Source of the DNA: Ascidiaceihabitans sp.
GTDB lineage: Bacteria > Pseudomonadota > Alphaproteobacteria > Rhodobacterales > Rhodobacteraceae
Assembly (NCBI GenBank): GCA_028825475.1
Contig: JAPKAB010000005.1
Location: 96,814-160,813 of the forward strand
Direction: 5' to 3'
DNA length: 64,000 nt
The notes beneath the pieces are model-generated. The model had not been told where the DNA came from and searched no databases. It saw nothing but the letters and a program-made list of their open reading frames with translations. Position numbers and translations under genes: made by a program. This document shows positions 2,154-4,435 of this stretch, piece after piece; position 1 is the stretch's first letter; each line of letters starts with the position of its first letter.

Positions 2154-2621
2154 TCAGTTGACGGTTTTGGCGTCGACCACATCCGTTGCAATCACGTTCT
2201 GGCTGGCGATCTGAATGCGCCGTGGTTTCAGCGCTTCGGGCACTTCACGCGTCAGGTCAATGTGCAGCATTCCATCGGCGTGGCTGGCCCCCGTGACCCG
2301 AACATGGTCGGCCAAATGGAACCGCCGTTCAAACGCCCGTGTGGCAATACCACGATGGAGGTATTTTTTATCCTCATTTTCGTCAGCTTTTTTGGCCGTA
2401 ACAATCAGGGAATTTTCCCGCACTTCAACATTCAAATCCGGCTCTGAGAACCCAGCCACCGCGATAGATATGCGATACGCGTCGTCATCCGTTTTTTCGA
2501 TGTTATAGGGTGGGTAACTGTTTTGGGGTGCATCGTTCGTCAGCACGCGATCCATCATATCAGCGATTTGGTCAAAGCCAACAGTGGCGCGGTGCAGCGG
2601 TGCAAAATCAAAAGTACGCAT
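2154..2621 (-). CDS. Hsp20/alpha-crystallin family small heat shock protein (IbpA-like)
   Basis: 155 aa; alpha-crystallin domain with YRISIAVAGFSEPDLNVEVRENSLIVTAKK...RGIATRAFERRFHLADHVRV. Confidence 0.93.
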   Translation of the reverse strand: MRTFDFAPLHRATVGFDQIADMMDRVLTNDAPQNSYPPYNIEKTDDDAYRISIAVAGFSEPDLNVEVRENSLIVTAKKADENEDKKYLHRGIATRAFERRFHLADHVRVTGASHADGMLHIDLTREVPEALKPRRIQIASQNVIATDVVDAKTVN

Positions 2622-2629
2622 AGTTTAGT

Positions 2630-2648
2630 ATCCTCACAGATGAGCGAT
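2630..2648 (-). promoter_or_regulatory. ROSE-like RNA thermometer hairpin sequestering the hsp20 Shine-Dalgarno
   Basis: Transcript 5'-AUCGCUCA-UCUG-UGAGGAU-3': 7 bp with one bulged G; UCGCU pairs with the SD core AGGA (9 nt upstream of AUG 2621), matching the U(U/C)GCU ROSE signature. Confidence 0.65.
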
Positions 2649-2675
2649 TTCATGTCAGACCCTCCTGTTGCGGAC

Positions 2676-2699
2676 GGGCCCAGATTAATATCTGGGCCC
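2676..2699 (-). repeat. Perfect 10-bp inverted repeat (5' leader hairpin of hsp20)
   Basis: GGGCCCAGAT-atta-ATCTGGGCCC on the minus strand. Confidence 0.8.
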
Positions 2700-2723
2700 A
2701 ATATTAGGCGTTCCGATAACATC

Positions 2724-2752
2724 AATGTGGGGAGGATTTTTGTGGGTTCAAG
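2724..2752 (-). promoter_or_regulatory. Putative sigma32 (RpoH) promoter of hsp20
   Basis: Minus strand CTTGAAC (2746-2752) - 13 nt - CCCCACATT (2724-2732), close to CTTGAAA-N13-CCCCATnT. Confidence 0.6.
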
Positions 2753-3572
2753 ACCCACTGAGTTTGATAAATTTCGCACCCGTATCATTGCGCGTCTTGC
2801 CAACACCAATGCGACGTACCTTTGGCGAGGCCGTGACAGAGGGCGTGTATGACGTCGAACGAAGTTCCGATTTTAGGTCCGCAATTAATGGCGGCAGATA
2901 CATCCCAAGGGCAACCTTCTTACCGTTGATCGTGGTCATCCCAGAGACCACAGAGACCACGCGCCCCCGACCATTGAGGTGGGAAAACACTGGCGCACCT
3001 GAGGATCCGTAGGTCACGTCACAGTCGAAGATCAGCACGTTGTTTTGGCGATCCATCATCTGGCATTCACGCTGTCGCGACTGCGCATCGGCGCGCCCGC
3101 GCCCATAGGACACCACGCTAACAGGTCCATTTTTGACCACATCCGTATGTAGCGCGAAGGGATCCATCTCGGAAAACGGGATTGGTCTGCTCAGCTTCAA
3201 TAACGCTACATCATGGCTGACGTTCTTCGCTGAAAGCGGCTCCATCGGTGCGTAACCGTTGTGGGCAGCCACGCCGACAATACGGCGCTCTGCAGCTGAT
3301 TTGCCTTCGCGCAGACCTGCACGGAAAATGAAATCCTTAGGCGCATAAGCCACGCCTGTGGTACGATCATAAACACAGTGCGCTGCTGTCAAAACCAAAT
3401 CTGGGGCGATCAATGTGCCCGAACAAAACCCACTGTTGGCGATGTCGAGACGACCAACAGCTTGCCAACCACGCGCCTCATTTTGGGTTTCTAGTTTCTT
3501 TAGATTGGTGCTGTCTGCCTGTGCAAAACCTGCGCTTAGACATAGTAAATATGTAATCAAAAATTTCTTCAT
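2748..3572 (-). CDS. Secreted trypsin-like serine protease (S1 family)
   Basis: Signal peptide MKKFLITYLLCLSAGFAQA; triad motifs LTAAHC, HDVALLKL, GSSGAPVF. Confidence 0.88.
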   Translation of the reverse strand: MKKFLITYLLCLSAGFAQADSTNLKKLETQNEARGWQAVGRLDIANSGFCSGTLIAPDLVLTAAHCVYDRTTGVAYAPKDFIFRAGLREGKSAAERRIVGVAAHNGYAPMEPLSAKNVSHDVALLKLSRPIPFSEMDPFALHTDVVKNGPVSVVSYGRGRADAQSRQRECQMMDRQNNVLIFDCDVTYGSSGAPVFSHLNGRGRVVSVVSGMTTINGKKVALGMYLPPLIADLKSELRSTSYTPSVTASPKVRRIGVGKTRNDTGAKFIKLSGS

Positions 3573-4435
3573 GGCTTGATAAATTTCGCGCCTGTATCAC
3601 GACGCACCCCATTTACTAGAACTCTTTCGCCGTCTTTCTGGGCAACCAATTCCGCACGCAATCGTGCAAGTGGTGCACCAAGAGCTGTGCCCAATGAAAC
3701 CTTTTCACCGTCCACTTCAGCCTTGGCTGAGACCACAGAAACGATATGCGCCTTCCCATCTTTAAAAGTGAAAATAGGTGCGCCTGATGATCCAAAATCA
3801 ACCGAACAAGACGTTACAAGAACGCCTTCCTGGCGCGCCAAAACAACACAGACCTCTTGAAGTGAGGGGGCTTCAGCGCGGTCTTTTGCATAACTGACAA
3901 CGCCAACTTGATCACCTTTACGCGGACGTGCGGCAGTGCCAAACGGTTTTACAGCGTTGTTGCGAATGGGCTGGTCCAGCTCAAGTAATGCGAGGTCATA
4001 GTGCACCCGCTTGGACGAAACATCGCCACCGAATTCATAGTCTGGATGCACAACGGCACGGCGAATACCGCGATAGGCCGACGCGCGACCGTTGCGCCAG
4101 CCAGCCAGAAATTCAACGGTTTTGTGATCAATACGTTCGTTCGTCGACTTATCAAACAGGCAGTGCGCGGCTGTCAAAACCAGGTTCGGAGCAATCAATG
4201 CACCCGTACAAAATCCGGTCCCACCAATATCCAAACGCCCCACAGCTTGCCACGCGCGACCATCATCGCCCGTGTTTAAACGACGTAGCCGTGCATCCTG
4301 CGCAAAAGCAGCAGAGGCCACAACCAGGGCCATAATTGATAAAGACATCCAACGACGCACAGCAACGATCCTAATAGTTACCCTGACCGGATATCGGTCA
4401 GTTGCGGCAGAATTAGGGCATCTAAACAGATTCAA
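3569..4435 (-). CDS. Secreted trypsin-like serine protease (S1 family), tandem paralogue; true start may be internal (MSLSIMALVVASAAFA)
   Basis: LTAAHCLF, YDLALLEL, DFGSSGAPIF; stop/start overlap of 4 nt with the downstream paralogue. Confidence 0.86.
   Translation of the reverse strand: MNLFRCPNSAATDRYPVRVTIRIVAVRRWMSLSIMALVVASAAFAQDARLRRLNTGDDGRAWQAVGRLDIGGTGFCTGALIAPNLVLTAAHCLFDKSTNERIDHKTVEFLAGWRNGRASAYRGIRRAVVHPDYEFGGDVSSKRVHYDLALLELDQPIRNNAVKPFGTAARPRKGDQVGVVSYAKDRAEAPSLQEVCVVLARQEGVLVTSCSVDFGSSGAPIFTFKDGKAHIVSVVSAKAEVDGEKVSLGTALGAPLARLRAELVAQKDGERVLVNGVRRDTGAKFIKP

Follow-up and report, generated by a model that had tools for sequence, protein, structure and literature searches.

The question raised by this locus is whether the leader of a small heat-shock gene acts as an RNA thermometer. 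The gene lies in a 64,000-nt stretch (hereafter the window) of one draft genome of Ascidiaceihabitans sp., a marine bacterium of the Roseobacter group, where an open reading frame on the minus strand at 2154..2621 encodes a 155-aa hsp20/IbpA-type small heat-shock protein. The protein matches Pfam HSP20 with 74.5 bits and is IbpA-like according to NCBIfam, at a score under the equivalog cut-off. The original prediction proposed that a ROSE-like hairpin directly upstream of the AUG at 2621 masks the Shine-Dalgarno (SD) sequence and makes hsp20 translation dependent on temperature.

A sigma32-like promoter precedes hsp20

A match to the sigma32 promoter consensus, CTTGAA-N14-CCCCACATT, occupies 2724..2752 on the minus strand. 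We placed the start site, and with it the 5′ end of the leader, from this match, giving a putative 5′ UTR of ~95 nt at 2622..2717 (minus strand). A sigma32-type heat-shock promoter is one of the features of the ROSE class, and as judged from sequence it is represented here by the consensus match together with its conserved distance, the motif lying at about -131 relative to the ATG in the majority of relatives scanned. Just upstream of hsp20 are two adjacent and similar open reading frames (2748-3572 and 3569-4435, minus strand) that have the look of secreted trypsin-like serine proteases; the first, for which NCBIfam returned no match, ends inside the hsp20 promoter region.

The leader also contains the start of a 32-codon open reading frame (2653-2555, minus strand) with a strong SD-like AGGAGGG, which begins before the SD-masking hairpin described below and runs past the hsp20 start in a different frame. 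This reading frame is not conserved. An 8-codon version that ends at the hsp20 SD is found in the Sulfitobacter-type leaders L037 and L042. With an upstream open reading frame in just 15 of 81 orthologous leaders, we rejected it as a conserved feature.

The hsp20 SD can pair with an upstream anti-SD strand

As had been claimed, the minus strand at 2648-2630 reads ATCGCTCA-TCTG-TGAGGAT (AUCGCUCA-UCUG-UGAGGAU in RNA). The motif stops 8 nt short of the hsp20 AUG and so lies where ROSE elements do, in the 5′ UTR immediately ahead of a small heat-shock gene. We refer to the structure it can form as hairpin II (2630..2648, minus strand; AUCgCUCA-UCUG-UGAGGAU). In it the anti-SD UCGCU pairs with the SD AGGA and one G is bulged. 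This pairing is possible just as it was first drawn, and the hairpin folded alone has an energy of about -4.6 kcal/mol at 37 °C.

Conservation of UCGCU and AGGA in orthologous leaders had been set beforehand as the test of the original prediction. We collected such leaders from genomes of the genus and from 80 named loci, nearly all from the Roseobacter group, and obtained 81 distinct sequences. U[CU]GCU and AGGA are present in all 81, bulged G included. The window sequence and these leaders thus have the arrangement that marks the ROSE class, a 3′-most hairpin in which a U(U/C)GCU anti-SD pairs with the SD and one G is bulged. In the 81-leader count a few hairpin II rows took an AGGA too far upstream, which produced odd outer pairs, and the anchors of the upstream hairpin (hairpin I, below) paired poorly, with 2-3 of 5 pairs, in 5 of the 81; counts from alignments of 23 and 99 leaders are cleaner. 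A second hsp20 leader in the same genome (G000:C20; L023:1882-1944, minus strand) also has a ROSE-like hairpin, GUCGCUU...AAGGAC, in which a G is bulged and the flanking pairs differ yet still match; all ten aligned genomes of the genus conserve it.

We consider it very improbable that hairpin II is a product of chance or of sequence conservation alone, with UCGCU and AGGA kept for other reasons and left unpaired. Its pairs scarcely vary, as such an explanation would have it: with its two strands almost without variation, hairpin II offers little covariation in either the 23- or the 99-leader alignment, its conservation could therefore be partly sequence-specific, and RNAfold often favours other folds, even where the comparative evidence is strong. 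However, the bulged-G geometry is the same as in tested ROSE elements, it recurs before the second hsp20 with flanking pairs that are altered but matching, and the rare changes within hairpin II preserve pairing, with C-G replaced by U-A in three leaders of the 99-leader alignment.

Covariation reveals a larger element

Hairpin II is the 3′ part of a bigger structure. A further hairpin with a bulged G, hairpin I (GGGCCC-g-UCC...GGA-GGGUCU; 2657..2681, minus strand), is conserved and covaries in relatives. Over the 23 seed leaders, 95.1% of cells in the alignment are paired and double-change cells number 23 compared with 7.5 in shuffles, while structures slid along the same sequences are only 45-58% paired. 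The changes in the outer pairs of hairpin I are mostly switches between C-G and U-A. Extending the comparison to 99 distinct leaders, a set that takes in other alphaproteobacterial families and whose model-based alignment leans towards the structure, gave 91.3% paired cells, 126 double-change cells compared with 45 in shuffles, and 43-56% pairing for slid structures. RNAalifold, unprompted, recovered both hairpins and both bulges.

The original prediction was therefore right about hairpin II and too narrow about the extent of the element, since the hairpin at 2681-2657 had been missed. The promoter at 2752-2724 and a palindrome at 2699-2676 had escaped notice as well. Stable hairpins upstream of the sensor are a further feature of the ROSE class; here hairpin I is conserved and covarying in relatives and predicted to be unformed in the window itself, owing to the palindrome.

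Near relatives form an extra hairpin, H0 (UAUCGGAACgCC...GGGUUUCGGUA), at the 5′ end of their leaders. Alignment A6 and its pair counts place the corresponding site at 2689..2718 (minus strand) in the window, where the 3′ arm is changed. In alignment A6 all three hairpins of these relatives (H0, I and II) bulge a G in a similar place, as if they shared a design or an origin.

The element is widespread and falls below Rfam cut-offs

At gathering thresholds, an Rfam search returned no match for the leader. The covariance scan suggested along with the original prediction thus stayed below cut-off: the best hit of a relaxed search was to ROSE_2 (RF01832), full length at 2692-2615 (minus strand), with 21 bits and an E value of 0.026, compared with a gathering cut-off of 65 bits. 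ROSE (RF00435; cut-off 45 bits) did not match the window, including when E values up to 10 were allowed for the leader. By their own cut-offs, the window element lies outside both Rfam families. Across 151 genomes of the family, RF01832 scored above cut-off in none and RF00435 in one. The relaxed search also returned the AilA thermometer, which we discarded as a match on the opposite strand with a chance-level score.

We built two covariance models from the leaders. The first, R2, was made from 17 leaders of other genera with the window's genus left out, and it matches the window at 2684-2619 (minus strand) with 39.8 bits and an E value of 3e-10. Together with the conserved pairing across the family, this match supports the claim that the element is ROSE-like. 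R2 also finds the second hsp20 leader of the genome (E value 2.5e-5) and the E. coli K-12 ibpA thermometer (E value 2.3e-4), to which it aligns across the ROSE_2 hairpins. The second model, R1, in which the window's genus was included, matches 128 of the 151 family genomes, nearly always with a single match per genome, and 25 of 192 genomes sampled across the class. In 51 of 53 matched loci examined, an HSP20-like open reading frame begins directly at the element's end, and Pfam confirmed HSP20 for nine matched loci outside the family. These matches indicate that the leader element is conserved far beyond chance, that a ROSE-like thermometer before hsp20 would be close to universal in the Roseobacter-group family of the window, and that it would extend to other alphaproteobacterial families. 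Almost all of these loci escape the Rfam ROSE models. The covariation data and the model could fill a gap in annotation.

The leader resembles short ROSE elements of ibpA genes

The window element is of a known kind, the U(U/C)GCU class of ROSE, and its architecture is closest to that of the E. coli ibpA ROSE_2 and the short Pseudomonas ROSE. ROSE-like motifs have already been described in the same clade: sections of a 2011 report on the Roseobacter Nautella sp. R11 place them before ibpA and hspD (PMC3230580). As in the genome studied here, two small heat-shock genes are involved and the assignment in those sections was made from sequence; the genus is a different one, and those sections present no alignment, covariation or model. 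What we add is the covariation, the family-wide model, a link in structure to the type known from gammaproteobacteria, and the variant with the palindrome.

ROSE_2 (RF01832) of E. coli and Salmonella ibpA has a CCUGUCC...GGAAGG-type hairpin I followed by a hairpin II of UCGCU...AGGA in which one G is bulged, lies directly before the ibpA/hsp20 AUG, and in E. coli is found by R2, a model of Roseobacter-group leaders. It differs in that the window scores 21 bits where the family requires 65, the nearest relatives add a 5′ hairpin, and the palindrome of the window genome spans the 5′ arm of hairpin I. ROSE (RF00435) shares the UYGCU/AGGA hairpin before alphaproteobacterial small heat-shock genes, whereas it has no match in the window and one among the 151 family genomes. 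The short ibpA ROSE of Pseudomonas is alike in its two compact hairpins, its short U(U/C)GCU SD hairpin, its sigma32-dependent transcription and the ibpA gene downstream (PMC3669281). In contrast, its leader is ~62 nt long instead of ~95 nt, the near relatives of the window have an additional 5′ hairpin, and the Pseudomonas element has been tested experimentally where the window element is known from its letters. Work in 2013 established that these compact two-hairpin elements are functional, that hairpin II alone is sufficient, and that removal of its imperfections locks the hairpin shut (PMC3669281). The original description of the window hairpin as unusually compact does not hold, given that a hairpin of this short form is the norm across the family and that a short ROSE functions in Pseudomonas (PMC3669281).

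A perfect palindrome in the leader of this genome, real or artefactual

The leader departs from those of its relatives in a perfect 10-bp palindrome, GGGCCCAGAU-AUUA-AUCUGGGCCC (2676..2699, minus strand), which is present in this genome only. Where near relatives have TTTCGG, this genome has CCCAGA, and the change makes up 5 of the 8 differences that separate it from the nearest relative over 103 nt. The substituted bases exactly match the reverse complement of the arm close by, and what was an imperfect palindrome has thereby become a perfect one of 10 bp. Clustered changes of this sort are the hallmark of template switching. The palindrome occurs as a single copy in the genome and in none of 20 related genomes, which rules out a repeated mobile element. 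We also ruled out a terminator of the upstream protease gene, as no T-run follows and a terminator scan was negative.

At 37 °C the palindrome has a computed energy of -20.7 kcal/mol compared with -13.9 kcal/mol for hairpin I, and it is predicted to outcompete hairpin I and abolish it. The folding prediction gives hairpin I a probability of 0.61-1.0 in 16 relatives and ~0.00 here, and in the predicted fold of the window leader the SD is held by an alternative pairing of GUCC with GGAU. The palindrome may be a real rewiring or an artefact of assembly or population, two cases that one draft genome cannot separate.

We offer, with considerable doubt, the proposal that a single template switch perfected the palindrome, replaced the ancestral hairpins and moved the hsp20 thermometer to another fold that hides the SD. 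If true, the palindrome would be a case of an RNA thermometer rewired naturally in one step. A related reading, which we regard as unlikely, is that an ancestral thermometer has been broken or rewired such that hairpin I could not form and the SD would stay in the GUCC/GGAU pairing, closed across the physiological range. The loss of predicted hairpin I relative to the 16 relatives, the alternative SD pairing and the energies would all fit it. However, it is based on predicted energies and a single draft genome, the window leader keeps hairpin II intact, and in Pseudomonas hairpin II is enough by itself (PMC3669281). The palindrome variant is in any case a natural test of the need for hairpin I.

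Probable temperature control and possible IbpA-type self-repression

The original prediction also called for folding the leader over a range of temperatures. With RNAfold the SD did not clearly open from 15 to 45 °C, either in the window leader or in most relatives; for this genome the program preferred another fold, and hairpins I and II were not part of the predicted structure (P ~0.00). Nearest-neighbour parameters are a poor guide to ROSE hairpins, whose core has non-Watson-Crick contacts. Given the lack of a clear opening and the frequent failure to predict hairpin II, we dropped RNAfold as evidence on melting, and temperature gating therefore rests on homology with tested ROSE elements.

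From its sequence, conserved pairing, covariation, position before hsp20 and kinship with the E. coli ibpA element, we conclude that the leader is very probably a ROSE-like translational RNA thermometer before an IbpA-type hsp20. Melting of hairpin II with temperature, and the control of translation by it, we infer from the tested relatives. We hypothesize that the sigma32-type promoter would produce the ~95-nt leader, in which hairpin I would stay folded, probably as a stable base, and the UCGCU strand of the short and imperfect hairpin II would mask AGGA at normal temperature. Heat would then melt hairpin II and allow ribosomes to start.

The leader could instead serve mainly as a binding site through which Hsp20/IbpA represses its own synthesis, with clients that appear on heating titrating the protein away and no need for the RNA to melt. 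This has a real, if lesser, chance of being correct. E. coli IbpA acts in this way, repressing its own translation via the ibpA 5′ UTR, and repression depends on R93, on an aromatic side chain at position 34 and on a positive charge at 97/98; the same study noted R93 and Y34 as conserved in alphaproteobacterial IbpAs (PMC10474464). The window protein has Y36, R95, R99 and R100 at the corresponding places. However, hairpin II of Pseudomonas alone responds to temperature in vitro without IbpA (PMC3669281), and self-repression is compatible with a thermometer and does not exclude one. The two may also work jointly, and IbpA-type self-repression is plausible as a second layer on the thermometer that we favour. 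Among the orthologous loci, the hsp20 coding match of L012/L026 (genus genome G009, one draft) is split into two overlapping pieces, which resembles a frameshift or an assembly error.
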